DNA from: an uncultured Bacteroidales bacterium
GTDB lineage: Bacteria; Bacteroidota; Bacteroidia; Bacteroidales; P3
NCBI GenBank assembly: GCA_946613135.1
Contig: CAMOFI010000009.1
Span: forward strand, 1-36,816
Direction of reading: 5' to 3'
DNA length: 36,816 nucleotides
Position 1 is the first letter of the stretch. Every line of letters starts with the position of its first letter. Below, piece after piece: positions 15,894-30,733 of the stretch. The position numbers were made by a program, and so were the translations under genes. The notes below the pieces were generated by a model. The model made no database searches and was not told the origin of the DNA. It saw only the letters and a list, made by a program, of their open reading frames with translations.

Positions 15894-15928
15894 ACGACAT
15901 TTCAATACAAGAAATTGTTGTAAGGGTA
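15881..15928. terminator. inverted repeat between topA and hflX
   Basis: CTACCCTTACGACA pairs with TTGTTGTAAGGGTAG (one G-T pair), with CAAT/ATTG pairing again inside. The right arm is the coding end of hflX. A long hairpin can form in transcripts from either strand, placing a likely transcription barrier between convergent topA and hflX. There is no long T run, so intrinsic termination is plausible but unproven. Confidence 0.5.
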
Positions 15929-17191
15929 GCGGACAGCATGCAGGCGGCTTACCTCTTGGTACATCATTTCCCTTAGGCGCTCTATGTTCTGGCGATTCGC
16001 AGCCGAGATGAACACGGCGCGGTTCTGGTCCCTCTTCGACATCCACGAATTCTCCAGCATTTCGAGGGTCCAGTTGGCTTTCGTCATCGGCGTCAGGTCG
16101 TCATCTTCTTTCTCAATATAGGTGTATGCATCTATTTTGTTGAATACCATAATCGTAGGTTTGTCGTTGGCTTTAATCTCCTCCAAAGTCCGGTTGACGG
16201 AGTCGATCTGCTGCTCGTAGTCGGGGTGTGAGATGTCTACGACATGAAGCAACAGGTCGGCCTCGCAGACCTCGTCGAGAGTGGACTTGAACGATTCGAC
16301 AAGACCATGTGGAAGTTTGCGTATGAAGCCTACTGTGTCGGTAAGCAGGAATGGAAGGTTACCGAACACCACTTTTCGGACTGTCGTGTCGAGGGTGGCA
16401 AAGAGTTTGTTTTCGGCAAAAACGTCTGACTTGGAAAGGAGGTTCATCAGAGTCGACTTGCCCACATTGGTGTATCCCACAAGGGCAACACGGATAAGGC
16501 TTTCGCGATTCTTGCGCTGCTGCACTTTCTGCTTGTCGATATCGGCAAGGCGTTGCTTAAGAAGTGTAATCTTTTCGGTGATAAGACGTCGGTCGGTTTC
16601 TATCTGGCTTTCACCCGGGCCGCGCATACCGATACCGCCGCGCTGTCGTTCAAGGTGTGTCCACAGGCGGGTAAGTCGCGGCAGCATATACTGCAGCTGT
16701 GCCAGTTCGACTTGGGTTTTGGCTATCGAGGTGCGGGCACGTTTGGCAAAAATATCCAGGATCAGAGTTGTACGGTCAAGGATGCGGCAGTTCAAAGCCT
16801 TCTCGAGGTTGCGCAGCTGCGCCGGCGAAAGTTCGTCGTCGAACACTACAAAGTCAATATCCAACGCATTCTTGTATTCGATCAGTTCCTCAAGTTTGCC
16901 GCTACCTATATAGGTTCGGCTGTCGGGACGCTCAAGTTTCTGTATGACAGACTTTACAGGCACTCCTCCAGCCGTTTCCAGAAGGAAGGCAAGTTCTTTA
17001 AGGCACTCCTCGGTGCGTTGCATTGATGTTTTGGAATCGCATACCGAAACAAGGATGGCCCTCTCGGGCACGACATCGGTACTGAAAGTGTTGCGCTCTT
17101 GAGGTGAAGGGCGTCTCTGGTTCTCTGCCTCCCACACTCCGGTCTCTCCTTTAAATTTGCCTTTGTTTGTCTTCCAATTAGTCTTTTTCAT
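15902..17191 (-). CDS. hflX: ribosome-associated GTPase HflX
   Basis: The 429-residue protein has the HflX N-terminal domain (SRTYIGSGKLEEL, VVFDDELSPAQLRNLE), the linker signature GGIGMRGPGESQIETDRR (185-202) and a G domain with G1 GYTNVGKST (239-247), G3 DTVG (285-288) and G4 NKID (351-354). HflX binds the 50S subunit and rescues or splits stalled ribosomes under stress. The first 40 residues are a basic, low-complexity extension of doubtful importance; later starts are possible, but no internal Met is well placed. It is the last gene of a six-gene - strand cluster, 60 nt after a glycosyltransferase. Confidence 0.96.
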   Translation of the reverse strand: MKKTNWKTNKGKFKGETGVWEAENQRRPSPQERNTFSTDVVPERAILVSVCDSKTSMQRTEECLKELAFLLETAGGVPVKSVIQKLERPDSRTYIGSGKLEELIEYKNALDIDFVVFDDELSPAQLRNLEKALNCRILDRTTLILDIFAKRARTSIAKTQVELAQLQYMLPRLTRLWTHLERQRGGIGMRGPGESQIETDRRLITEKITLLKQRLADIDKQKVQQRKNRESLIRVALVGYTNVGKSTLMNLLSKSDVFAENKLFATLDTTVRKVVFGNLPFLLTDTVGFIRKLPHGLVESFKSTLDEVCEADLLLHVVDISHPDYEQQIDSVNRTLEEIKANDKPTIMVFNKIDAYTYIEKEDDDLTPMTKANWTLEMLENSWMSKRDQNRAVFISAANRQNIERLREMMYQEVSRLHAVRYPYNNFLY

Positions 17192-17251
17192 CTGATTATT
17201 TTACGTCGTCAGTGCTGTGGCATAGAATAAGCCTACAATGCTGACTCTTGA

Positions 17252-18442
17252 TCATTTATGCTTTTCCATTGCCTGTTGCAGAATTTGTCGGAGCTGTAGT
17301 CCTGTTGCCTGCCAGGAGAAATTGCTGTGGACATACTGCTGCGCATTGTCGCTGATTCGTACACGTGCTTCCTCGTCGCGGAGCAGGCTGACGATGGCCT
17401 TTGCGAAACTTGGCGCATCGTCGCAAACAAGGATATTTTCTGTGTCGGTGGCGCGGAGAGAATGGTTGGCAAGTGATGTTGTTATGCATGGCAGATGCAT
17501 GGACATGGCCTCGAGGAGCTTGTTCTGCAATCCAGATCCGATACGCATAGGAGCGACAAAGACCTTTGATTGGGCATATAGCAGTCTCATATCTGGAACG
17601 AAGCCTGTGACAGTGACCTGGTCGGAGGCGAGCTGACGGACACTTGCCGAGGGTGTTGCCCCGGCTATGGCCACCCTGGCAGAGGGATATTCGCGCCACA
17701 CGATGGGCATGATTTCCTTTACGAGAAAGCGTGCCGCGTCTATGTTAGGTCTATACTGCATGTTGCCGCAGAAGAGAATGTCGTAGGGCTTGTCGACAGA
17801 ATGCTGTATGGCTTGGGGACTGTAGTAGTCGGCGTCGACCCCGTTGCGCACAACGTCAATCACAGTGTCGCGATGCTGGGGGATGGCATCTCTGTCTATC
17901 TCGGAAATAACCGTCAGGCGGTCGAAGTTGGAGCAGGCTCTGAATTCGGCCGAGCGCAACATCTTGAACTCGTAGTGCTGCAGGAAGTAGCGCAACCCCC
18001 TGTGGGTCATCATTCGCCGTTCGAAGTTGAGCGACAAAGCATCCTGAAAATCAATCACCTTCGGTTTCTCCAATTGAGCAGCATAGTCGATGGTGCGAAC
18101 CATTTGGGCGTAGACGACATCGGGATTGACCTTGTCGGCAAAGCGTCGACACTGCTTGCGAGCCTTGCGGCTATCCCAGTAGCCGATCTGCAGCGAACGG
18201 ACCGACAAGAAATTGCGCAGCACGCGGAATACTCCTGACAAACGCGAAAGACGGGCAATGCAGATGTCGCGACAGTAGTGGCGGAGTTCGTCAATCGACG
18301 ACTTGTCGACTTTATGATGCGAGAGAGCAAAAAGATACACCTCGTCGTTTTGGGCGAGAGTACGTATCTGATGATATGCTCGCAGCTTGTCGCCTTTTTC
18401 GAGTGGATATGGAAAACGTGGAAGAATTACAAGTATTTTCAT
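17252..18442 (-). CDS. family-4-type glycosyltransferase (sugar transferase)
   Basis: The ORF track begins at a TTG (18505), but the protein almost certainly starts at the ATG 18440-18442, giving MKILVILPRFPYPLEKGDKLRA, the usual beginning of this GT4 subgroup, and 396 residues. The N-terminal GT-B domain includes VIDFQDALSLNFERRM. The C-terminal donor domain includes ILFCGNMQYRPNIDAARFLV, VTVTGFVPDMRLLYAQSKVFVAPMR and GSGLQNKLLEAMSMHLPCITTS, with the expected acidic residue. No membrane segment is seen. The best resemblance I can recall is to TIGR03087-like sugar transferases; the substrate is unknown. It lies 59 nt after parC and 60 nt before hflX, so it is probably co-transcribed with both. 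Confidence 0.85.
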   Translation of the reverse strand: MKILVILPRFPYPLEKGDKLRAYHQIRTLAQNDEVYLFALSHHKVDKSSIDELRHYCRDICIARLSRLSGVFRVLRNFLSVRSLQIGYWDSRKARKQCRRFADKVNPDVVYAQMVRTIDYAAQLEKPKVIDFQDALSLNFERRMMTHRGLRYFLQHYEFKMLRSAEFRACSNFDRLTVISEIDRDAIPQHRDTVIDVVRNGVDADYYSPQAIQHSVDKPYDILFCGNMQYRPNIDAARFLVKEIMPIVWREYPSARVAIAGATPSASVRQLASDQVTVTGFVPDMRLLYAQSKVFVAPMRIGSGLQNKLLEAMSMHLPCITTSLANHSLRATDTENILVCDDAPSFAKAIVSLLRDEEARVRISDNAQQYVHSNFSWQATGLQLRQILQQAMEKHK

Positions 18443-18501
18443 TTGAGGTTTGGGTTGCTTTTCGTTATCATTTTCTTTCTCGTTTTTAGCGCAAAACACA
18501 C

Positions 18502-21225
18502 TCAAAACAGTGATGTCTGTGTCCCTTCGGCAAAACCTTCCCTGTCGTCGGGCAGCTGGTCGGTTCTGTTATCGTCCTCGGGTTCCGGTTCGGGCTCGGG
18601 TTCTGGCAATGGGTCGAGCCAACGGAATTCCTTCACAGGCGATGTAGTGATGCGCTTGCCTTTGGCCTTATAGCCTTTGACAGCGATAAAGTCGCTTACT
18701 TCTATTATTTCGGACTCTATCTTCTTGTTGGAGCTTTGGTCGTATATCACTTCTAAACGAGGAAATGTGTCGACAGAATAGCACACCACCGTGTCGCCAG
18801 AGGCTTCGTCGATGAAAGGCAGCTTGCGGTCGTGCTCATCGACAACGAATCGTTTGATGTAGTAGCTTCCGGCTTCGGCTTCGCGGTAGACTATTGTTAC
18901 AATGGTCTTTGGACTATACTTGCGTATGAGCATTGTGTCGTCGTCGTAATGGTTGCCGAGATCGAAGTTGGTTGTGCGGAAATGGCCCGACCGCATAAGT
19001 GTCAGGATTTTGTCTTTACCCTTGAATTCGCCGAGCAAAATACCAGACTCGTTGACATTGAGACGCTTGACGCTCTCGTCGAACCATATCTTGCGGGCTC
19101 CGAGAGTAGACACACCTTCGTCTTTCATGTTAATGCTTCTGACTGCATTGCGTGTCAAGATGTTGCCCATCGAGGCGCGTCCCTTAATGGCGAGGGTGGC
19201 GAAGTTGAAATCGAAACTGGTTTTCTTCAGTTTAGGCTTCGAGACGTGGTGTATGGTTACAGTTTCCGCTTCGCCATTAGGATTAGCAGTGAAATATAGT
19301 ATCTTTGAACCTTTTGTACCTTTGGTGAGCTGATACTCCTTGTCGCGAGTGATACCGAGAACGGAGAAACGCTTGACATATACGTAGCCGAAGGCGCCGT
19401 CGCGGTATATCATGTTGTAGACCGTACGTTCGTCGCCCTTTCGGAAGAGGCCTATATACTCTATCTCTTTACAGTCGTTGCTGCCTATGAAGCCTTTCTC
19501 CTGCACTTTGGTGACTATCATGGTGCCATCCTTGCGGAATGCGATGATGTCGTCCATCTTGGAGCAGTCGAAGGCATATTCGGCACCTTCGTCTTTTTTG
19601 AGGGCATAGCCGGCAAAACCGGTGGCTCGGTTGACATAGAGTTTTTCGTTGGCTACAGCAACAGTTACGGCTGAAATATCCTCGAAATCGCGAACCTCAG
19701 TCTTGCGCTCACGGCCCTTGCCGAATTTTTCGAGTATGTGGCGGAAATAGGCTATTGCATACTCTGTCAGATGTTCGAGATGGTTCTTTGTCTCGTCAAT
19801 GTTCATCTCGATATTGGCGATGTCCTCGTCAGCTTTCTTGATGTCGAATTTAGAAATTTTACGTACTGGTTTCTCGCACAGTTTCAGGACATCTTCGCGC
19901 GTAATCTGTTTCTTGAACAGCTTGCGGTAGGGGTCGAAAGCTCGCTCGATGGCGGTGACTTGGTCGTCCCACGACTCTTGGTCTTTCTCCAACTGCTTGT
20001 AGATACGCTTTTCAAAGAAAATCTTTTCGAGCGAGATCCAGTGCCACTTGTCTTCAAGTTCGGCAAGTTGTATTTCGAGTTCCTGACGCAGAAGGTCTTT
20101 GGTGCGCAATGTGGAATGGCGCAGTATCTCGGAAGCAGTCATGAAGACCGGTTTTTTGTCGACGATGACACACGTCTGCGGCGATATGCTTATCTGGCAA
20201 TTGGTGAAAGCATAGAGAGCGTCGATCATCTGGTCGGGCGACACTCCCTGTGGCAGGTAGACCACAATCTCGACCTCTGCGGCCGTATTGTCGTCCACCT
20301 TCTTGATTTTAATCTTGCCCTGCTCGTTGGCCTTCAGGATGCTGTCGATGAGGACACTGGTTGTTACAGTGTACGGCAGTTCAGTGATGACGATACATTT
20401 TCGCTTGTCGTCGTAGTGCATACGCGCCCTTATACGAAGGCGTCCGCCGAGGGCAGCATCGTTGTATTTGGACACGTCGATGAGACCACCCGTCGAGAAA
20501 TCAGGATAAATCTCGAAGGGTATATTCTGCAATATCTTAATCGAGGATTCGATCAGTTCGCAGAAATTATAAGGCAATATGACTGATGTAAGTGTGACTG
20601 CAATACCTTTGGTGCCCTGTGCAAGGAGCAGGGGAAACTTGATGGGGAGCGACACAGGCTCCTGTTTACGACCATCGTATGAGGGTTTCCACTCTGTGGT
20701 TTTTTTATTGAAGACCACCTCGTTGGCAAACTTCGACAGTCGTGCCTCGATATAACGTCCTGCAGCGGCATCGTCACCTGTCAATATGTTGCCCCAGTTT
20801 CCCTGGCAGTCGATAAGGAGGTCTTTCTGTCCCATATTGACGAGAGCGTCTTTGATAGAGGCATCGCCATGCGGGTGATACTGCATGGTATTACCCACAA
20901 TGTTGGCCACCTTGGTGAAACGGCCGTCGTCAGTCTCCTTCATGGCATGAAGTATGCGACGCTGAACAGGTTTCAGGCCATCGTCGATATCGGGCACACT
21001 GCGGTCGAGAATCACGTCCGATGCATAGTCAATCCAATAGTCTCTGAACATTGTATTGAGCGAAATAGTCTCGCCGTCTTGGTCCACATTGCGGCCGTCC
21101 CTGCCGTCGTCGGCTGGCGGCACATATCCTCCGGCTGAAGTTTCGGAGAGGATATCTGCCGACTCGTCTGTCGTTTCTGTGTTTTCGTTGATGTTGTCGA
21201 TATCGTTTTCTATATTGTCGTCCAT
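18502..21225 (-). CDS. parC: DNA topoisomerase IV subunit A (GyrA/ParC family)
   Basis: The 907-residue type IIA topoisomerase A subunit breaks and rejoins DNA. The catalytic tyrosine is Tyr158 in AAAGRYIEARLSKFA. The helix-turn-helix region is QYHPHGDASIKDALVNMGQ (115-133). The RYIEARLSKF version and the divergent C-terminal half point to ParC rather than GyrA; no GyrA-box (QRRGGKG-type) is visible. The first 50 residues are an acidic, low-complexity extension, and the tail has an alternating Pro-Glu tract. The position equivalent to E. coli GyrA Ser83 is Ala122, while Asp126 matches Asp87. The partner gene parE is not in the window. It lies 33 nt after folC and ends 59 nt before a glycosyltransferase start. 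Confidence 0.88.
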   Translation of the reverse strand: MDDNIENDIDNINENTETTDESADILSETSAGGYVPPADDGRDGRNVDQDGETISLNTMFRDYWIDYASDVILDRSVPDIDDGLKPVQRRILHAMKETDDGRFTKVANIVGNTMQYHPHGDASIKDALVNMGQKDLLIDCQGNWGNILTGDDAAAGRYIEARLSKFANEVVFNKKTTEWKPSYDGRKQEPVSLPIKFPLLLAQGTKGIAVTLTSVILPYNFCELIESSIKILQNIPFEIYPDFSTGGLIDVSKYNDAALGGRLRIRARMHYDDKRKCIVITELPYTVTTSVLIDSILKANEQGKIKIKKVDDNTAAEVEIVVYLPQGVSPDQMIDALYAFTNCQISISPQTCVIVDKKPVFMTASEILRHSTLRTKDLLRQELEIQLAELEDKWHWISLEKIFFEKRIYKQLEKDQESWDDQVTAIERAFDPYRKLFKKQITREDVLKLCEKPVRKISKFDIKKADEDIANIEMNIDETKNHLEHLTEYAIAYFRHILEKFGKGRERKTEVRDFEDISAVTVAVANEKLYVNRATGFAGYALKKDEGAEYAFDCSKMDDIIAFRKDGTMIVTKVQEKGFIGSNDCKEIEYIGLFRKGDERTVYNMIYRDGAFGYVYVKRFSVLGITRDKEYQLTKGTKGSKILYFTANPNGEAETVTIHHVSKPKLKKTSFDFNFATLAIKGRASMGNILTRNAVRSINMKDEGVSTLGARKIWFDESVKRLNVNESGILLGEFKGKDKILTLMRSGHFRTTNFDLGNHYDDDTMLIRKYSPKTIVTIVYREAEAGSYYIKRFVVDEHDRKLPFIDEASGDTVVCYSVDTFPRLEVIYDQSSNKKIESEIIEVSDFIAVKGYKAKGKRITTSPVKEFRWLDPLPEPEPEPEPEDDNRTDQLPDDREGFAEGTQTSLF

Positions 21226-21258: not shown

Positions 21259-22605
21259 TTATTCCGACAACATGTCGGCTATCAGGAAGATGCTGCCGGT
21301 TACGAGCAACAGGTCGTCGGCTCCGGCATCCTTTCGTGCTGCAGCCACAGCCTCTTTCACATTGGCATAGGCTTGGCCATCTATTCCCAGCTTGTTGGCG
21401 ACAGCCTGAAGAATGTTCACATCCAGTCCGCGCTGCACGCTAGGCTGGCTAAAGTACCATACAGGATCCTGTCCAATGTGTTCTTTGTCGAGTTGCGAAT
21501 GGAGATATGTGAGTATTTTGTTGTAGTCCTTGTCGTTGACACAACCGTAGACAATATGCAGACGTTTGAATTCGAGTCCGGAGAGGCCAACCATCATTGC
21601 ATTTATGCCATCAAAGTTGTGAGCTGTCTCACACACCGTCAGTGGCTTGCGTCCAACAATCTGCCAACGTCCCATAAGATGTGTGTTGACCACCACATGG
21701 TCAAGTCCCAAGCGGAAAGCTTCTTCGCTGATTTCCAACACACCGCCAATGCGCAACTGGTTCACAGCCTCGCACACTGTGGCAATGTTCCACATCTGGT
21801 ATGGCCCTATCAGTCCGGAAGCGAATTCGTCGGCTTGCCCTGTAGCGCTGTTTTTTATAAATTCGCCATTATGTTCGAGGGTGAAAATCATCCGTTCCCC
21901 GTCGAATTTCCAGTCAGGATCGACATGCCACTTGCTGTCGGCAAAGGTTATAGGGCTATGACGTTCAGAGGCAATGCGTTCGAATACAGGTTTGGTTTCG
22001 GTCTGCGTCTGTCCAACAACGACTGGAACAGCCGGTTTAATTATGCCAGCTTTTTCGAGAGCAATCTTTTCAAGGGTGTCGCCCAGAAACTGCGTGTGGT
22101 CCAAGCCTATGTTGGTGATGATGCTGAGCAAAGGGGTTATGACATTGGTCGAGTCGAGACGACCGCCCATACCGACCTCAATTACAGCGACATCAACTTT
22201 TTCGTTGCGGAAATAGTCGAAAGCGAGCCCTACAGTCATCTCGAAAAACGAAAGTCCTTGCTTTTCGAAGAATGAATGGTTCTGTTCGACGAAGTCGACC
22301 ACATTCTGTTCGGGAATTTTCTCGCCATTGATTCTTATACGCTCACGAAAGTCGACAAGGTGTGGCGATGTGTACAGACCTACTTTATAGCCTGCCTCCT
22401 GCAAAACGGAGGCAAGGAAATGCGATACCGATCCTTTGCCATTGGTTCCGGCGACATGTATGGAGCGGAATCCAAGCTCAGGATGGTGCAAATGGTCCAT
22501 CATTGCTTCGGTGTTTACCAGGTCGGCCTTGTAGGCGGCAGCTCCAATACGGTGATAGGCCGGAAGAGCTTGAAATAGATATTTTAAAGTTTCTGAATAA
22601 AGCAT
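21259..22605 (-). CDS. folC: bifunctional folylpolyglutamate/dihydrofolate synthase
   Basis: The 448-residue Mur-ligase-fold enzyme adds glutamate to dihydropteroate and to reduced folates. The P-loop is GTNGKGSVSHFL (53-64), followed by the FolC signatures LYTSPHLVDFRERIRING and VAVIEVGMGGRLDSTNVI and the metal-binding region ITNIGLDHTQFLGDTLEKIALEKAGI. The C-terminal ligase domain includes CETAHNFDGI and VYGCVNDKDYNKIL. Length fits the family (about 420-450). It lies 36 nt after the outer-membrane protein gene and 33 nt before parC. Confidence 0.96.
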   Translation of the reverse strand: MLYSETLKYLFQALPAYHRIGAAAYKADLVNTEAMMDHLHHPELGFRSIHVAGTNGKGSVSHFLASVLQEAGYKVGLYTSPHLVDFRERIRINGEKIPEQNVVDFVEQNHSFFEKQGLSFFEMTVGLAFDYFRNEKVDVAVIEVGMGGRLDSTNVITPLLSIITNIGLDHTQFLGDTLEKIALEKAGIIKPAVPVVVGQTQTETKPVFERIASERHSPITFADSKWHVDPDWKFDGERMIFTLEHNGEFIKNSATGQADEFASGLIGPYQMWNIATVCEAVNQLRIGGVLEISEEAFRLGLDHVVVNTHLMGRWQIVGRKPLTVCETAHNFDGINAMMVGLSGLEFKRLHIVYGCVNDKDYNKILTYLHSQLDKEHIGQDPVWYFSQPSVQRGLDVNILQAVANKLGIDGQAYANVKEAVAAARKDAGADDLLLVTGSIFLIADMLSE

Positions 22606-22641: not shown

Positions 22642-24504
22642 TCACTTTGTCGGAATGGTATATGTCAGACCGACCATGGCGTTGAATCGCGGTGCCGGAT
22701 AGTTGGCCCAGAGCCAATAGCGCTGGAAGGTGACATTGTCAAATTTGGCAAAGAACGACAGGGCTCGGTTGTGGACATACTCAACTTCGAAAGAGAGTCC
22801 GAAGCGTGCCGGCAGTGTTGCAGTAACCTCGTTAATGCCTGTTGCGGGATTGGTGGCATACTCGGCATCGCAAGCAGAGAGGAAGAGTGTTTGCAGAGTG
22901 AAGAACCACTTGTCTTTATAATTTACATCAGCGTCCAGGTGTGCCTCAAATTCGTTGCTGAAAAGGAGAATCATATTGTCTGGAACATTGTAGTCGGCAG
23001 AATAGACACCGCCAAGAGTCATCGTGATCATCTCGTCGTTGACAAAAGTGAAGTCGGCACCAACCTTCAATTCGTTGTGGTCGACGAAGTACGGCGTATA
23101 TACATTCTGCAATAAGTAACGTCTGTCGAGGGCAAAATACATTTTGTTTCTGTAAAAATTGTTATCCACCAAAACATTAAGCATCAACTTCTTCGAGAAA
23201 TTGATACGAAGATGTGCATATAGGTCGTTCTCGACGGTTGCTTTTGTGTCGACACCGGGGGCCGTGAAAGGATTCTCGTTTTTCAGCGTGTTCCAGTCAT
23301 TGACATGATAGTCGCCACGGAAACCGACTATCAGACTGATGGAATTGTTAGAGAATGACTTGGCCACAGACAGGTCCGGAAACAGGTTATGAGTTGTGGA
23401 TTCAGGATTGTCATAACCATTGAAACCAAGTCTGAGGCCGGTATGGAACTTGAGTCCGTTGAAGAGGAAATCGACATAAGGATTGAACGTCAGCACATGA
23501 CGTCCGGCTTCCAACGAGTCGGGCAATGCTGTTGCGGCGTCATAGCCAAGCGGAAGGTCGGCAGTCGACTGCGGAGCATCGTAGCTCTGCCTGTAGCCAT
23601 GCCAATTGGCGTTGAGATAGGCTATGGCCTTATATTTGCTGAACATGGGGAAACCGTAATGGATGCCACCGTTGAGGTTCATGGAGAGTTGCTTGGAATC
23701 GTAGCGTCCCCACATGTCAGCCATCCCAATAGCGGCATCGTAGCCGAGTTTGTTGATGTCGGTATTTATCGACTTGGCTCCTAAATTGAGTGCCAAATTA
23801 TTGTAAGCGAATGCATAGTCTGAGAACGAGATAGAGTCGCGGTTGAGTCCCAGTCGGTTCTGAAGGGTGGAGTCGCTGAATCCGTAGTAGCGGCCATACA
23901 TGCGGTCGAAAGCCAAATCGGCCGACAGTAAGTGACTCTTTTTGAGAATGTATTTAGCGAATACATCAAACCGGGTGTCCGACATACGTGTTCGTCCATA
24001 GTGGTTGGGCGACGGTGTATCGACATCCTCATTCCCAAACGTCGTCACGTCTGTCTGGTGGTACAGGCGTGCTCCATAGGACATGTTGTTGTGGCGTGTT
24101 GAGGTGTAATAGAGGTCCATGAGAGGATTGATGTCGGCAAAAGCGGCAAAATCGTGTCCAATGCCGAAACGCATGTAATTATTGTACAGGCGCACTGGCG
24201 ACCCTATCACTTTGCGAGTCTTAGGACCCGACGTCTCCGTCACCGAACTCATGCGACGTGGACTGATACTATAATTGAATTTAGGTTGCAGGTCGGCAGT
24301 TATATTGTCGTTTACGGCAGGTGCCACATTGACTTTTTCGGTCACCCCGTCGAGCACCGGGGTATAGTCGCCTACCACTATAACCGACTCGTTGTAAACC
24401 GACGAGGTGCTGTCGGTCTGTGCATGGACGTTGCCCGAAACGAATATCTGGAGTCCTATGAGGATAACAAGGCAAAGCAATATGTTGATTGGTTTTCTAT
24501 TCAT
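22642..24504 (-). CDS. outer-membrane beta-barrel protein (often labelled TonB-dependent receptor), function unknown
   Basis: The 620-residue protein has a Sec signal peptide (residues 1 to about 29, ending VHAQ). A conserved-looking N-terminal segment follows (SVIVVGDYTPVLDGVTEKVN). The rest is rich in alternating aromatic and polar residues, as in outer-membrane barrels (RFDVFAKYILKKSHLLSADLAF, NNFYRNKMYFALDRRYLL, RALSFFAKFDNVTFQRYWLW). I see no clear plug domain, so a true TonB-dependent receptor is doubtful. The end, MVGLTYTIPTK, is a typical last strand plus a few residues. It lies 64 nt after a large TPR protein gene and 36 nt before folC. The TPR neighbour suggests a two-part outer-membrane machine, but the function is unknown. 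Confidence 0.7.
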   Translation of the reverse strand: MNRKPINILLCLVILIGLQIFVSGNVHAQTDSTSSVYNESVIVVGDYTPVLDGVTEKVNVAPAVNDNITADLQPKFNYSISPRRMSSVTETSGPKTRKVIGSPVRLYNNYMRFGIGHDFAAFADINPLMDLYYTSTRHNNMSYGARLYHQTDVTTFGNEDVDTPSPNHYGRTRMSDTRFDVFAKYILKKSHLLSADLAFDRMYGRYYGFSDSTLQNRLGLNRDSISFSDYAFAYNNLALNLGAKSINTDINKLGYDAAIGMADMWGRYDSKQLSMNLNGGIHYGFPMFSKYKAIAYLNANWHGYRQSYDAPQSTADLPLGYDAATALPDSLEAGRHVLTFNPYVDFLFNGLKFHTGLRLGFNGYDNPESTTHNLFPDLSVAKSFSNNSISLIVGFRGDYHVNDWNTLKNENPFTAPGVDTKATVENDLYAHLRINFSKKLMLNVLVDNNFYRNKMYFALDRRYLLQNVYTPYFVDHNELKVGADFTFVNDEMITMTLGGVYSADYNVPDNMILLFSNEFEAHLDADVNYKDKWFFTLQTLFLSACDAEYATNPATGINEVTATLPARFGLSFEVEYVHNRALSFFAKFDNVTFQRYWLWANYPAPRFNAMVGLTYTIPTK

Positions 24505-24568
24505 GGAATATACTTATTAAATATCTAAAATCTGTCTACTATTTTGGCGTCGTTTTCGTTAAACAGCG

Positions 24569-27500
24569 TCAATCATCTTCATCGAGGGTGATTGTTGGAG
24601 CTTCGTCGTCATTGCTGTCAGGCTCCGTAGCATTTTTAGGAGCCGTTATAGACTGCAGATGTTGCTTTGCTTCCATAACGACCTCTTCGTCTGCATCGTT
24701 GGCCACCTCATAGTTGTCTATGATGCTCTGCAGTGTCTGCTTTGCCTGTACATCGTTGCCGCGACGATGGAATATGTCGGCCCAGAGGATGAATGTCTTG
24801 GCCAGCCAGTAGTCGCTGCCAGGATTGTTCACCACATCCTCTACGATGCGTTCGGCTTGGTCGAGGTCATTCTCGCCATACTTTATATAAGCCCTGCGAT
24901 AGCCGGCTTCGCCCATATAGTCGCCATTTGACGAGTTCATAAGTTGAGCATATGTCGCGAAAGCCTCATTCATGGCACCTGCATAGTAGTAACTTCTCGA
25001 CATGAGTATTGCTGCTTCATCCTTCATTTCGTCGGTCGACTTAGGTTCGTTGATGACCTCGCGTGCCGAAATGGCCACATTGCCGGTGTCTTTGAGTGCA
25101 TACCAGCTGCGCAATATACCCATACGAGCCTGAAGGCGCGAAGCATCGGACGACGACACAACGACGAGCGGCACATAATAATCGAGAGCTTTGCGGTAGT
25201 TTTTCTGAGCGTAATTGGTTACGGCAGCCTGATAGAGGCTGTTCTCTGTATATGGGTTATTGCCCCTTTCGGCCACCCATTCGTAATGGCTCAGAGCCTT
25301 GCCTTGCTGGCCTGAACGTGTCAGGGCGTCGGCAAGATAGTAATGGGCCTTAAGGATAAAGAGCCCGTGGGGAAACTTCTGAATATAGTTGGAGAAACCC
25401 GCAATGGCATTGTCATAGTTGCCGGCAAAATAACGGTTTTCGGCAGCGAGATATAGCGTCGAATCCTGCTCGACGGCCGACACTGTAGTCTTCGTCACAC
25501 GGCTTACGTAGGTGAAATATTCCTCAACACGGTCTTGTTCAACATAGATGTTCTTTATCGACATCATAGCGTCGCGGGCCTCGTCGGTTCCAGGGTAGCG
25601 CGACAGCAGTTGGTCGAATGTTTCGAGGGCCTTGTCGTTCTGCTCTGTATTATAGTAGATAAGACCTACGTTAAGCAATGCCTGCGGCACATAGCTGCTC
25701 TGCGAATATCTCTTTATGAAGTTGTTATAGTACAGCAGAGCCATCTCGTTGTTGTCGCAGATTAGATAGGTGTTGGCTATCTCAAACATGGCCTTGGGCG
25801 AAAGAGGTGAATTGCTGAATTTCTCGAAAATATAGTTCAAACTGTTAAGCTTTTCCACATTCTTGCCCTGAGCTCCAAAACACAGGGCTTTCTGGTAGGT
25901 GGCATAGTCGGCATCCTGTCCTCCGGCCTTGATGACACGGTCGTAATAGCCAATGGCACCGTCAAAATTCTTGCGTACATACAGGCAGTCGCCCATGCGG
26001 TTATAGGTATCAAACACCTGCTTGCGGTCGGAATCGCTGTTCGAGAGCGACAAGAACTCCGAGAACTTCTCTTCTGCCCGGCCATACATCTTGCGACGCA
26101 TATACACATATCCTGCCGTGTACAGGGCCTGAGGGTAATACACAGAATTCTTGCGCGATGTGGCTGTAAAGAACCTGTCGAGGAGTTTCTGCGAGCGGCC
26201 ATAGTTGGCAAGGCGGTACTGCGATTCTGCAGAGAGGTAGAGGGCATCGGTGGTTATCGATGGTGTGGCGTTGACCGACACGGCACTGTCGAAACAGACC
26301 GAGGCTTGCTGTAAGTTGCGTTCGTTGAACAGGTCGATGCCTCTGTTGACGAGAATACGCTGGTATGCCTGCCTCATTGTAGCATCCTTCAGCAGTTCTT
26401 TCTTGTTCCTCTCTATCAACGCCAAAGCATCCTTATAGTTACGTGTGGTACAATAGAGAGAGGTGAGTATTTGTTGTATCTCGGCCTTGCGCTTCGACTT
26501 TGGATAGCGTTGCAGGTAGTTCTCGAACGAACGTATCGACTCGTTGTAGGCATTCGGATTCAGTTCGCAGCTCAGTTTAGCATAGTTGAAAGCAGCCTCT
26601 TCTTGTATGTCAAGGTTATGGCGCATTTCAGAGGCACTTTTGAATGCCGTGCGGGCATCGTTTTTTCGGTCCAGCTTAATGTATGTGTCCCCAAGGGTGA
26701 AGAGTGCGTTCTGTGCTGTAGAGTCCTCAGCGCCGACAAAAGTCGACAGGAATGTCGCTGCCGAATCATACTTGCCCAGCATGTAGTAGCAATAGCCCAT
26801 TGGATAGTTGCCCATTGCTACAGTTTTGTTGTTGTTCCTTTTCGATGCGTCTTCGTTGGCCTGGATATAGTAGTCCAAAGCTCTTCTATACTCGCCACGG
26901 TTGAAATACACATCTCCCACAACGCGTTCAATTTCCTCGCGTTGTGCAACGTTACGCCTCTTCAGTAGGTCTGGTGCCATACGAAGCACTTCGTCGTCGT
27001 TACCCTGATAGTGCTTGATATAGAAACGATAAAGCGGCACCAAAGTATCAAAAGCCTTGACTTTTTCTATCTTGCGGAACTCCTTGTCGGCCGAATCATA
27101 CTGCTTGGTACTGAACAAAATATCTCCATAGTAGTATATTGCCGCATTGCGATAATACGACTTTCCATCGGCGACATGCTTGAAATACTTCTTGGCATTA
27201 TCCTTGTCGCCCTGCTGAAAATAGCAGAAGGCTGTTTTGTATTCATATTCACTGCGATGGTTGAATTCGACCTCCGAACCGACAACTTGAAGGTACTCGT
27301 GCAGTGCCTTGTTGTATTCGCCCTTGTCGAAATAGACATTACCCATCGCGAAACGGGCCATATTCATCTTGTCGCTTTCCGGATACAGCCTCATAAACTC
27401 GCTGATGCGGTACATCGCATCGTCGTTGCGGAGTTGTTCCGAGCATACTGCAGCATAATACATTGCGTCGGCCGCATCGGCCGACGAGGCATCGGCTCCT

Positions 27501-27670
27501 TTAAGGTACTTGTCGAAAAGATGCTGTGCTACAGCGAATTTGTCCTTTCTAAACAGATCCAGGGCGTCATTATACAACCCTGACAATCCACTATTGTCCA
27601 AACCGGTTTGCGCTTTCAGCCCAACCGACAGCGCAAGCAGGCCGAAACATAGGAAAATTGCACGCTTCAT
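24569..27670 (-). CDS. large periplasmic TPR protein
   Basis: The ORF track starts at a TTG (27706), but the ATG at 27668-27670 gives a proper signal peptide, MKRAIFLCFGLLALSVGLKAQ, and 1033 residues. Nearly the whole mature protein is tetratricopeptide repeats, for example GNVYFDKGEYNKALHEYLQV, YYGDILFSTKQYDSADKEF, GLIYYNTEQNDKALETFDQL and YYLADALTRSGQQGKALSHYE. The C terminus is an acidic tail (NDDEAPTITLDEDD). Some repeats have the BamD/YbgF style (FLSLSNSDSDR, RYPGTDEA). It is a periplasmic scaffold; no lipobox is present, so anchoring would be through partners. It heads a six-gene - strand cluster, 64 nt before the barrel protein. The role is unknown. Confidence 0.85.
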   Translation of the reverse strand: MKRAIFLCFGLLALSVGLKAQTGLDNSGLSGLYNDALDLFRKDKFAVAQHLFDKYLKGADASSADAADAMYYAAVCSEQLRNDDAMYRISEFMRLYPESDKMNMARFAMGNVYFDKGEYNKALHEYLQVVGSEVEFNHRSEYEYKTAFCYFQQGDKDNAKKYFKHVADGKSYYRNAAIYYYGDILFSTKQYDSADKEFRKIEKVKAFDTLVPLYRFYIKHYQGNDDEVLRMAPDLLKRRNVAQREEIERVVGDVYFNRGEYRRALDYYIQANEDASKRNNNKTVAMGNYPMGYCYYMLGKYDSAATFLSTFVGAEDSTAQNALFTLGDTYIKLDRKNDARTAFKSASEMRHNLDIQEEAAFNYAKLSCELNPNAYNESIRSFENYLQRYPKSKRKAEIQQILTSLYCTTRNYKDALALIERNKKELLKDATMRQAYQRILVNRGIDLFNERNLQQASVCFDSAVSVNATPSITTDALYLSAESQYRLANYGRSQKLLDRFFTATSRKNSVYYPQALYTAGYVYMRRKMYGRAEEKFSEFLSLSNSDSDRKQVFDTYNRMGDCLYVRKNFDGAIGYYDRVIKAGGQDADYATYQKALCFGAQGKNVEKLNSLNYIFEKFSNSPLSPKAMFEIANTYLICDNNEMALLYYNNFIKRYSQSSYVPQALLNVGLIYYNTEQNDKALETFDQLLSRYPGTDEARDAMMSIKNIYVEQDRVEEYFTYVSRVTKTTVSAVEQDSTLYLAAENRYFAGNYDNAIAGFSNYIQKFPHGLFILKAHYYLADALTRSGQQGKALSHYEWVAERGNNPYTENSLYQAAVTNYAQKNYRKALDYYVPLVVVSSSDASRLQARMGILRSWYALKDTGNVAISAREVINEPKSTDEMKDEAAILMSRSYYYAGAMNEAFATYAQLMNSSNGDYMGEAGYRRAYIKYGENDLDQAERIVEDVVNNPGSDYWLAKTFILWADIFHRRGNDVQAKQTLQSIIDNYEVANDADEEVVMEAKQHLQSITAPKNATEPDSNDDEAPTITLDEDD

Positions 27671-27787: not shown

Positions 27788-28999
27788 TTGCAGCACTTCA
27801 ACAACATATTCATCGATGGCATGCTCAGCGACATCACTGTCTGCGACGGCATAATAACCGACATAGCTCCAAGCAAGGCAGAAACAGGCACTGTGCCACG
27901 TTCCGACTTGGCTTTTGCAATCCCTGGCCTTGTCAATATGCACACCCACTCGGCAATGACATTGTTGCGCAGTGCGGGCAGCGGCCTGCCGCTATTCCGT
28001 TGGCTCAACGAAGCAATCTTTCCACAGGAAGCAAAACTGACTCCCGAGAAGGTCTTCGAAGGCTCGGTCGACGCATGCAACGAGATGCTGTCGACAGGCA
28101 CTACTGCATTCAACGACATGTACTTCCATATAGAGAGCACGTTCCAAGCCGCTCACAAGTCAGGAATGAGTGCCAACATTGCCCTTTCGGTAACAGACGC
28201 CGATTTTGAAAACGGCACACTGAAAAAATTCATCAACGACTTCGAGCACTACACAACAGTTGCATCACGATGCAACGCCACTACATCTGTCGCTCCGCAC
28301 GCAATATATACAGTATCAGGAAAACATTTACAATATCTTGCTGATTTTGCGAAAGAACACGACACCCTGTTTCACATGCACCTGTCTGAAACACAGAAAG
28401 AGAGAGAGGACTGCATAAAGCAACACGGAGTGCCTCCAGTTGTGTATCTCGACCAACTGGGCATCTTCGACAAAGTGGGCAGCCGATTCATCGGTGCACA
28501 TTCCCTCTGGCTTGACAAAACTGAGATACAAATACTTGGCAGTCATCATGCAACCGTTGTCCACTGCCCCAACTCCAACTTGAAACTTGGATCTGGCTAC
28601 CGGTTTCTATACACCGAATTGCGGGATGCAGGTGTCAACGTCACCCTAGGCACCGACGGATGCGCTTCGAGCGACAACCTTGATATGATAGAAGCCATGA
28701 AACTGATGTCGCTGCTGCAGAAAGGGTACCGCAACGACCCCTCCGTCCTTCCCGCCGAAGAAGTTTTAGCCATAGCAACAACCAACGGACGCAAAGCCCT
28801 CAGACTTGACGACAACACCATAAAGACCGGCAACAAGGCCGACTTCTCAATAATAAGCCTCAACAATCCTATTTTCAAAAATATAGATATAATCAATTCA
28901 ACCAACGCTCAAAGACATTCCGACTTCCTTAACCACCTAATCTACGCCACACACGGCAACGCCATCTCTCAAACCATAACGCCACACATTGCAATCTAA
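27788..28999 (+). CDS. mtaD: amidohydrolase, MtaD-type (5-methylthioadenosine/S-adenosylhomocysteine deaminase family)
   Basis: The 403-residue metal-dependent deaminase has the HxH metal site at His52 and His54 (PGLVNMHTHSAMTLLR), the second site with His198 and the catalytic Glu201 (LFHMHLSETQKERE), a third histidine region (GAHSLWLDKTEI, VVHCPNSNLKLGSG) and the metal aspartate in TLGTDGCASSDN. The MtaD/TrzN-like order fits deamination of methylthioadenosine, SAH or adenosine; guanine deaminase-like activity cannot be excluded. The start is unusual. Homologous-looking sequence (HFNNIFIDGMLSDITVCDG) lies upstream of the first in-frame ATG (27821), so initiation is probably at TTG 27788-27790. 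The in-frame stop at 27758-27760 limits any extension. It is divergent from the TPR gene and 54 nt before the solute-binding protein. Confidence 0.85.
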   Translation: MQHFNNIFIDGMLSDITVCDGIITDIAPSKAETGTVPRSDLAFAIPGLVNMHTHSAMTLLRSAGSGLPLFRWLNEAIFPQEAKLTPEKVFEGSVDACNEMLSTGTTAFNDMYFHIESTFQAAHKSGMSANIALSVTDADFENGTLKKFINDFEHYTTVASRCNATTSVAPHAIYTVSGKHLQYLADFAKEHDTLFHMHLSETQKEREDCIKQHGVPPVVYLDQLGIFDKVGSRFIGAHSLWLDKTEIQILGSHHATVVHCPNSNLKLGSGYRFLYTELRDAGVNVTLGTDGCASSDNLDMIEAMKLMSLLQKGYRNDPSVLPAEEVLAIATTNGRKALRLDDNTIKTGNKADFSIISLNNPIFKNIDIINSTNAQRHSDFLNHLIYATHGNAISQTITPHIAI

Positions 29000-29053
29000 A
29001 ACAACAAACCTCCAAATGGCAAAAACTCCTCAAAAACACGCTCGTAAAGTGTT

Positions 29054-30733
29054 ATGAACCGCCTCAAAAAAAACACATCATCTATATCACGCTTGCACAA
29101 CATCTGTTGTACAATATGCCTCTTGTCATGTCTTACTATCCTGTCGTGCAGCCGCAAATCCACAAATGACGACAAAGCCATATTCCGCTACAACGAATCG
29201 GCCGGCATCGCCACACTGGATCCTGCATTTGCCAAAGACCAGGCCCTCATTTGGGCCACAACACAAATATACAACGGTTTGGTACGTCTCGACACAAATC
29301 TCAACGTCAAGCCATGCATAGCAAAGAGTTGGACCATCAGCGATGACGCCCTTACCTACATCTTCACTTTAAGAGACAGTGTGTATTTTCATAAGAATCC
29401 ACTATTTAACACAAAAGATTCAACCCGAAAAGTCATAGCGTCAGACTTCGTTTATTCACTCAACCGCATCCTCGATCCCGACGTAGCATCGCCTGGACTT
29501 TGGATTTTTTCGCATCTCGCCCCCAACGGCTTCCTGGCTCCCGACGACACCACATTTGTCGTAAAACTCAAAGAGCCTTTTGCTCCTATGCTCTCTTTGC
29601 TCTCGATGCCATACTGCAGCGTTGTGCCCCATGAAGTTGTGGAACACTACGGAACCGATTTCCGAAACCATCCGTGCGGAACCGGGCCCTTCAGATTCCA
29701 ATTTTGGAAAGAGGGCGTGAAATTAGTGCTTCGACGCAACCCGCTCTATTTTGAATACGACACCATAGTCCACACAAAAGACTCCTCTACCCTGTTCGAG
29801 TTACGCAGGTTGCCCTACCTTGATGCCGTTGCCGTCACCTTCATTATCGACAAGCAGACGGCATTCCTTGAATTCGTCAAAGGAAATCTCGACTTCATGA
29901 ACTCGCTCGACGCATCATACAAAGACGAGATACTGACACGCACCGGACAGCTAAAAGAAAAATACGCCGACAAACTTGACATGCTTTCCATACCATTCCT
30001 CAACACCGAATACCTCGGTTTTCTGATGGACGGCAACGAACTAATCCCCAAACCAGTACGTCAAGCCATCAACTATGGTTTCGACCGCCGAAAGATGATG
30101 AAATATATGCGCAACAACGTGGGTTTGCCCGGATGCAAGGGGATGATTCCCGCCGGACTGCCTGGCTACGACAGCACGGCTGGCTACGGCTACGACTACA
30201 ATCCGGAAAAAGCACGCCAACTGCTTGCCTCAGCAGGCTTCCCCGATGGCAAGGGGCTGTCACCCATCAGGTTGGCCACCACCAGCAGCTACCTTGACCT
30301 CTGCAAATATATACAGCAGCAGCTGTCGCTCATCGGCATAGACATCAAACTCGACGTGAATCCGCCTGCCGCGCTACGCGAGCAGATGGCGCAAGGAAAA
30401 TCGAGCTGGTTCAGAGGTTCATGGATAGCCGACTATCCCGATGCCGAGAACTACATGACACTGTTTTACAGTCCCAACCACTCTCCTGCCGGTCCCAACT
30501 ACACGCATTTCACATCAGCGAGTTACGATCGCCTGTATAGGCAGGCACTCGCTGAGACCAAGCCAGACAAGAGGCTCCAAATGTACCGCAAAATGGATTC
30601 CATCATGAGCGACGAAGCACCGGTTGTAGTACTCTACTATGACCAAATCCTGCACTTCACCCACAAGAATATCAGCGGAATAAGGACAAATGCCATGAAC
30701 GCGCTCGACCTGCGATACACAAAAAAGAAATAG
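29054..30733 (+). CDS. peptide-type ABC transporter solute-binding lipoprotein (SBP family 5)
   Basis: The 559-residue protein has a lipoprotein signal with the likely lipidated cysteine at residue 32 (CLTILSCSRKS). The fold is that of OppA/DppA: ATLDPAFAKDQALIWATTQIYNGLV at the start, then SKSWTISDDALTYIFTLRDSVYFH-like and ASDFVYSLNRILDPDVASPG segments, PHEVVEHYGTDFRNHPCGTGPF, and PVRQAINYGFDRRKMM with the GFPDGKGLSPIRL turn. It would bind oligopeptides or similar solutes at the membrane. No permease or ATPase genes are adjacent, so it is an orphan. It converges with nrdG, with 7 nt between the stops. Confidence 0.92.
   Translation: MNRLKKNTSSISRLHNICCTICLLSCLTILSCSRKSTNDDKAIFRYNESAGIATLDPAFAKDQALIWATTQIYNGLVRLDTNLNVKPCIAKSWTISDDALTYIFTLRDSVYFHKNPLFNTKDSTRKVIASDFVYSLNRILDPDVASPGLWIFSHLAPNGFLAPDDTTFVVKLKEPFAPMLSLLSMPYCSVVPHEVVEHYGTDFRNHPCGTGPFRFQFWKEGVKLVLRRNPLYFEYDTIVHTKDSSTLFELRRLPYLDAVAVTFIIDKQTAFLEFVKGNLDFMNSLDASYKDEILTRTGQLKEKYADKLDMLSIPFLNTEYLGFLMDGNELIPKPVRQAINYGFDRRKMMKYMRNNVGLPGCKGMIPAGLPGYDSTAGYGYDYNPEKARQLLASAGFPDGKGLSPIRLATTSSYLDLCKYIQQQLSLIGIDIKLDVNPPAALREQMAQGKSSWFRGSWIADYPDAENYMTLFYSPNHSPAGPNYTHFTSASYDRLYRQALAETKPDKRLQMYRKMDSIMSDEAPVVVLYYDQILHFTHKNISGIRTNAMNALDLRYTKKK

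Follow-up and report, generated by a model that had tools for sequence, protein, structure and literature searches.

A TPR protein and a plug-less outer-membrane barrel of Bacteroidota that probably belong to an ExbBD/TonB module, with a possible Tol-Pal-like role

Introduction

What is a tetratricopeptide repeat (TPR) protein doing beside an outer-membrane barrel protein in an uncultured Bacteroidales bacterium? The two genes lie in a 36,816-nucleotide stretch of contig CAMOFI010000009.1 (assembly GCA_946613135.1); we refer to this whole stretch as the window. An initial annotation, made from the sequence alone, had placed an adjacent TPR-barrel pair at 22642-27670, and both open reading frames (ORFs) were indeed found there, on the same strand and with 64 bp between the stop of the TPR gene and the start of the barrel gene:

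24569-27670, minus strand: TPR protein gene, an ORF of 1033 aa with an ATG start (MKRAIFLC...), encoding a TPR solenoid.
22642-24504, minus strand: outer-membrane barrel gene, an ORF of 620 aa; 22-strand barrel of the TonB-dependent-receptor type, plug-less (AlphaFold).

The same annotation suggested that the pair may be an envelope machine specific to Bacteroidota that generic annotation hides. Here, we examine with which other genes the pair is inherited, what the two proteins look like, and which known envelope system they most resemble.

Results

The adjacency of the two genes was assessed in 198 genomes of the phylum, in 295 genomes of the class, and in a scan of named genomes with the TPR alignment. 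The pair is adjacent at all 20 genus and order loci, although folC, parC, the glycosyltransferase gene and hflX drop away. Among the 80 loci of the named-genome scan, the barrel gene lies directly 3′ of the TPR gene in all 77 that could be tested; at the other 3, the sequence ends no more than 762 bp from the TPR gene. In the phylum sample, 47 of 48 Bacteroidia genomes from other orders carry the TPR and barrel genes within 2 kb and on the same strand. Adjacency of the pair is therefore far above chance. TPR orthologues are full-length throughout the phylum, and the gene is a near-universal single copy in the class (273 of 295 genomes). The initial annotation had called for a comparison of gene neighborhoods and had named independent phylogenetic distribution as an outcome that would speak against a common function. 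What we found is a pair that is adjacent phylum-wide, co-occurs and is lost together, and we judge the suggestion of a Bacteroidota-specific envelope machine behind generic annotation to be right.

Some lineages show other arrangements. One genome of the class in the phylum sample (G113) has the TPR and barrel genes, both intact, about 190 kb apart. A PhzF-like gene of about 300 codons is inserted between them in genus g30 (L089:9258-10172, plus strand), and relatives show a similar gap of about 1 kb. In family f105, both genes are strongly diverged and non-adjacent, and both are retained, as is the cluster-type ExbB described below.

Beyond the pair itself, the constant partners encode a putative inner-membrane motor. 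In other classes, TPR and barrel genes are followed by those for an HU/SPOR protein, ExbB, ExbD and often a TonB-like protein, and several families of Bacteroidia have the full run of TPR, barrel, HU-CCDC81/SPOR, ExbB, ExbD, TonB-like and folC genes. The partners match the Pfam families HU-CCDC81, SPOR, MotA_ExbB and ExbD, and TonB_C weakly. When one best match per genome is counted, barrel and cluster-type ExbB genes fall within 6 kb of each other in 41 of 46 genomes of other classes and in 13 of 47 genomes of the class. Balneolaceae-like families keep the barrel, HU protein, ExbB and ExbD genes together, with the TPR gene elsewhere; at the Balneolaceae-like loci L112-L115, the isolated TPR gene has hflX, aroA and dnaK nearby, and the barrel gene is with ExbB in another place.

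Where the run is broken, many Bacteroidia retain ExbB-ExbD-TonB-folC as a separate unit. The window's locus keeps only TPR, barrel and folC:

21259-22605, minus strand: folC, 36 bp 3′ of the barrel gene.

A profile search located the ExbB-ExbD-TonB trio of the same genome on contig 65, as a compact operon (ExbB, PF01618, 103 bits; ExbD, 59 bits; TonB_C, 22.9 bits against a cut-off of 24.6). Given the full ancestral run and the ExbB-ExbD-TonB-folC unit elsewhere, the folC gene beside the barrel gene in the window is best interpreted as a remnant of that run. Two further genes were seen near these motors. Just 5′ of the ExbB gene of the window's genome is a gene for a C10-peptidase-like protein (L212:2989-4491, plus strand), whose end (PNPASDF...GIY...KFIVK) resembles a sorting domain of the type IX secretion system (T9SS). 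In the genus member G016, the cluster-type ExbB gene (L214:8640-9377, minus strand) is preceded by genes for ParA, ParB and a DUF5683-like small membrane protein, which puts the motor beside chromosome-segregation genes.

This motor differs from the Ton-type one. Each of 15 Bacteroidales genomes has two full ExbB types. In the ExbB tree, the Ton-type proteins fall into a single clade with full support, separate from the cluster type, and the cluster ExbB of the window's genome groups with the folC-linked ExbBs; the deep branches, the canonical Escherichia coli proteins and one row of this tree are long and unsure. Of the NCBI equivalog models, the one for TolQ gives cluster ExbB its highest score, below the cut-off in every case.

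Losses follow the same division. No TPR orthologue was found in genus g131 (two genomes), genus g167 (three genomes), one 1.2-Mb genome and one 0.5-Mb genome, and the same seven genomes lack the barrel and the cluster-type ExbB as well, while five of them keep the Ton-type ExbB. The three genes were lost jointly in at least four lineages, two of which retain the Ton-type ExbB. All three persist in the sister genera of g131 and in f105, the divergent family. Across the 198 genomes of the phylum sample, TPR and cluster-type ExbB are both present in 113 and both absent in 62, with 19 and 4 exceptions (P = 3e−29, uncorrected for phylogeny). Because of this gene linkage, co-distribution and co-loss with one specific type of ExbB, we are confident in assigning the pair to an ExbBD/TonB module.

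The TPR protein was described in the initial annotation as periplasmic, and its features bear this out. It has a signal peptide of the signal peptidase I type, ending in ..LKAQ, with no lipobox cysteine, and its repeats match Pfam TPR_6 (E = 2e−36). The AlphaFold model (predicted local distance difference test [pLDDT] 85) is a single long alpha-solenoid of about 54 helices; it has a low-confidence break or hinge around residues 705-731, and its acidic C terminus is disordered. Pfam and NCBIfam returned TPR repeats and nothing else; a sequence search of solved structures found generic TPR proteins and no close relative, and a fold search with the model found only generic alpha-solenoids at low TM-scores. 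On the repeats, NCBIfam models for OM_YfiO (83.9 bits, cut-off 81.4), PorW/SprE (86.2 bits, cut-off 250) and CpoB/YbgF (TIGR02795, 212.7 bits summed over five repeat stretches, cut-off 90.1) give matches.

The barrel protein has no match in sequence searches of Pfam, NCBIfam or the PDB. Its AlphaFold model was built from a shallow and divergent alignment of 69 sequences (22% identity to the window's protein) and has a mean pLDDT of 78, mostly 85-97 within the barrel. It predicts 22 strands between residues 110 and 616, and all 50 best PDB matches listed in a fold search are TonB-dependent receptors or transporters of vitamin B12, siderophores or metals with the same fold. The protein had been called a barrel without an obvious plug, and both parts of that description hold: none of the 69 homologues matches the Pfam Plug or TonB-receptor barrel models at E ≤ 1, and the residues before the barrel are predicted to be disordered. 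A plug domain is also absent from seven barrels of other lineages, one of which has a weak C-terminal TonB_dep_Rec match. On the modeled fold, the protein is a receptor-type barrel that lost its plug or never had one. Two features precede the barrel:

24193-24438, minus strand: N-terminal tail of the barrel protein (residues 23-104), predicted to be disordered and periplasmic, with no structure in the AlphaFold model (pLDDT <50).
24307-24390, minus strand: conserved linear motif in this tail (residues 39-66; 69-sequence alignment), with a TonB-box-like start.

The motif has the consensus [KR]EVxV[VY][KN]PYxPxLSDAxKIxxLPxIxD, in which P49 and P62 are invariant and Y47 and K57 nearly so across the 69 sequences. 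Mean column entropy is 2.03 in the tail, 1.83 in the motif and 2.27 in the barrel; the disordered tail thus varies less than the barrel. Conservation within an unstructured segment is what one expects of a partner-binding motif, and the start of this one, [KR]EVxV, resembles a TonB box, which makes TonB the putative partner. A clear plug or TonB box in the barrel had been named as evidence against the proposed pair; there is no plug, and a TonB-box-like motif is present in the tail.

Of the known systems, Tol-Pal shows a distribution complementary to that of the pair. Within the phylum sample, TolB (TIGR02800) and Pal (TIGR02802) exceed their curated cut-offs in family f41 only, in 41 and 43 of its 43 genomes, respectively, and a TPR match occurs in none of these 43 genomes versus 132 of the 155 others. 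The window's genome has no TolB match at E ≤ 1e−10 and no Pal above the TIGR02802 cut-off, only a sub-threshold OmpA-type match. The absence of TolB and Pal outside f41 agrees with a 2025 survey in which tol-pal loci were not identified in Bacteroidetes and PorE was proposed instead (PMC12204202). Since the contrast comes from a single clade, the complementary distribution is suggestive of a Tol-like role and falls short of proof.

The remaining genes around the pair are mostly of local occurrence:

15902-21225, minus strand: parC, a GT4 glycosyltransferase gene and hflX, co-directional genes downstream; outside the system.

Together with folC, they follow the barrel gene on the same strand with gaps of at most 60 bp, the glycosyltransferase gene being, as annotated initially, the third gene 3′ of the barrel gene. 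The gene 5′ of the TPR gene is divergently oriented; judging from this and the spacing, the TPR gene probably heads the transcription unit. The view that the pair heads a housekeeping cluster holds for strand and spacing and fails for conservation, as parC, the glycosyltransferase gene and hflX are next to the pair only in its closest genus members (L049 and L050) among the neighborhoods compared. We therefore dropped folC-parC-glycosyltransferase-hflX as a functional cluster; of the downstream genes, only folC belongs to the older context of the pair. On the other side, divergent from the TPR gene, window positions 27788-30733 (plus strand) encode a TRZ/ATZ-type amidohydrolase and a family-5 solute-binding lipoprotein, an arrangement also seen in L049.

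Discussion

We propose that the two proteins make up the half of a trans-envelope Ton/Tol-superfamily machine that lies in the outer membrane and the periplasm. This machine, specific to Bacteroidota, would be driven by the proton motive force and most likely do a Tol-Pal-like job, a reading to which we give about an even chance. Its inner-membrane part would be an ExbB-ExbD motor reserved for it, together with a TonB/TolA-like transducer of its own; an HU-CCDC81/SPOR protein is encoded alongside in many lineages. The TonB-like rod would reach through the peptidoglycan and engage the TonB-box-like tail of the plug-less barrel. The TPR solenoid may serve as a periplasmic scaffold that couples the motor, the barrel and probably the peptidoglycan machinery, in a role comparable to that of CpoB in Tol-Pal or PorW/SprE in the T9SS. 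The job of the whole would be to couple outer-membrane invagination and stability to cell-wall constriction. We infer the contact of TonB with the tail, the contact of the TPR protein with the barrel and the Tol-like role from the evidence above.

SPOR domains bind septal peptidoglycan. Taken with the complementarity to Tol-Pal, the SPOR partner makes outer-membrane constriction or stability the most likely role, one that we regard as plausible at somewhat less than an even chance. With slightly more reserve, we conjecture that the pair, the folC-linked ExbB-ExbD-TonB and the SPOR protein functionally replace Tol-Pal in Bacteroidota, pulling on a plug-less barrel at division instead of recycling Pal through TolB. 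Like Tol-Pal (TolQ-TolR-TolA, TolB, Pal and CpoB), the system combines a TolQ/ExbB-TolR/ExbD-type motor and a TonB/TolA-like transducer, a likeness at the superfamily level; it also has a peptidoglycan-linked partner (here the SPOR protein) and a single-copy, broadly conserved set of genes, and its repeats may be of the CpoB/YbgF kind. Unlike Tol-Pal, it has neither a TolB propeller nor a Pal lipoprotein, its outer-membrane component is a 22-strand plug-less barrel, its TPR protein is about four times the size of CpoB, and its ExbB and ExbD fall below the TolQ and TolR equivalog cut-offs. PorE was proposed as a Pal-like tether between outer membrane and peptidoglycan that would fill the same tol-pal gap, and it has TPR and TolB-like parts; it is, however, a single multidomain lipoprotein tied to the T9SS, and neither a barrel nor ExbBD/TonB genes are described with it (PMC12204202).

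Several observations weigh against this proposal. The role is deduced from gene context. The TolB/Pal complementarity amounts to one family and one evolutionary contrast, 23 genomes have neither the TPR gene nor TolB/Pal at the thresholds used, and no TolB or Pal homologue occurs in the cluster. In the window's order, the ExbB trio is usually unlinked from the pair (linked at 1 of about 50 loci that are long enough), so that orthology and co-loss are what support the connection in this order. TonB_C matches score close to the cut-off, and ExbB and ExbD score below the TolQ and ExbB equivalog cut-offs. The 19 genomes with a TPR gene and no clear cluster-type ExbB are distant ones, and several lineages live without the system altogether. 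The tail resembles a TonB box in its motif only, and the disorder of the tail may reflect poor modeling from a shallow, divergent alignment.

The main rival holds that surface lipoproteins, or some other cargo, are exported or flipped with an input of energy: the barrel would be the conduit, the TPR protein a periplasmic chaperone or receptor, and ExbBD-TonB the source of energy. Surface lipoproteins are very abundant in Bacteroidota, and the phylum-wide distribution of the pair would match this abundance; the large open barrel predicted without a plug and the dedicated motor would suit such a conduit as well. There is also a precedent in Myxococcus, where the TonB-dependent receptor Oar is reported to be required for secretion of PopC (PMC6434023). 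Yet no substrate gene is linked to the pair, and the SPOR/HU partner indicates peptidoglycan or division instead; we consider export unlikely. Specialized import of one nutrient appears less likely still; here the barrel would be an aberrant TonB-dependent receptor, served by a Ton motor of its own and assisted by the TPR protein. The 22-strand receptor fold, the TonB-box-like N-terminal motif and the linked ExbBD-TonB genes, including a TonB-like partner, are what such a transporter would have. However, the lack of a plug in the 69 homologues and in the barrels tested from other classes leaves no gated uptake as it is known, and no surface lipoprotein or periplasmic substrate-binding partner is linked. 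Unlike TonB-dependent transporters, moreover, the barrel has a near-constant TPR partner and a motor to itself, distinct from the Ton-type ExbB that these genomes also have, and near-universal single-copy occurrence in the class is unlike a nutrient-specific receptor.

The two analogies drawn in the initial annotation fare worse. A split TPR/barrel polysaccharide exporter like AlgK/AlgE, or the fused PgaA and BcsC, is brought to mind by a TPR gene adjoining an outer-membrane barrel gene and by the glycosyltransferase gene downstream. Those exporters have 16 or 18 strands against the 22 of a receptor-type barrel here, no synthase was seen in the conserved neighborhoods, the glycosyltransferase gene is near only in the closest relatives, and the TPR protein has no lipobox; we regard this reading as the least probable of all. 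A part in outer-membrane protein assembly like that of BamD, or in the T9SS like that of PorW/SprE, is very improbable too. The OM_YfiO and PorW/SprE scores given above speak for it, but both matches are driven by the repeats, and a 1033-aa protein without a lipobox contrasts with BamD, a small TPR lipoprotein. The constant partners are ExbBD/TonB and not PorLM/SprA or BamA. In the two 2025 papers on the Bacteroidota barrel assembly machinery (BAM), the terms TPR and tetratricopeptide do not occur, and BamG is a 14-strand FadL homologue, as opposed to 22 strands here; the barrel protein has no Pfam match to FadL/Toluene_X. With no TPR subunit in those papers and a different barrel family, we rejected the pair as a BAM subunit (BamG, BamM or BamP), and we likewise rejected PorW identity of the TPR protein, since the PorW/SprE match is below its cut-off and the signal peptide is not that of a lipoprotein.

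Trans-envelope machines of comparable composition exist. The Agl-Glt gliding machine of Myxococcus unites a TolQR-type motor, TonB-like proteins, TPR proteins and outer-membrane barrels. The likeness is one of description, in a different phylum, and no gliding link is at hand for the TPR-barrel family. We found no account of the present system in the literature on CCDC81/SPOR/ExbB in Bacteroidota, plug-less receptors and Tol-like systems, preprints not being covered, and the main text of the Porphyromonas gingivalis essential-gene paper does not name the pair's genes.

A near-universal gene set can now be named that may account for how Bacteroidota, which are dominant gut bacteria, power the constriction and stability of their outer membrane. 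Two protein families that so far carry only the labels "TPR protein" and "TonB-dependent receptor" or "hypothetical" would gain a grouping based on function. The two ExbB types of these bacteria would, in turn, separate into a motor for nutrient uptake and a second motor of the envelope type.

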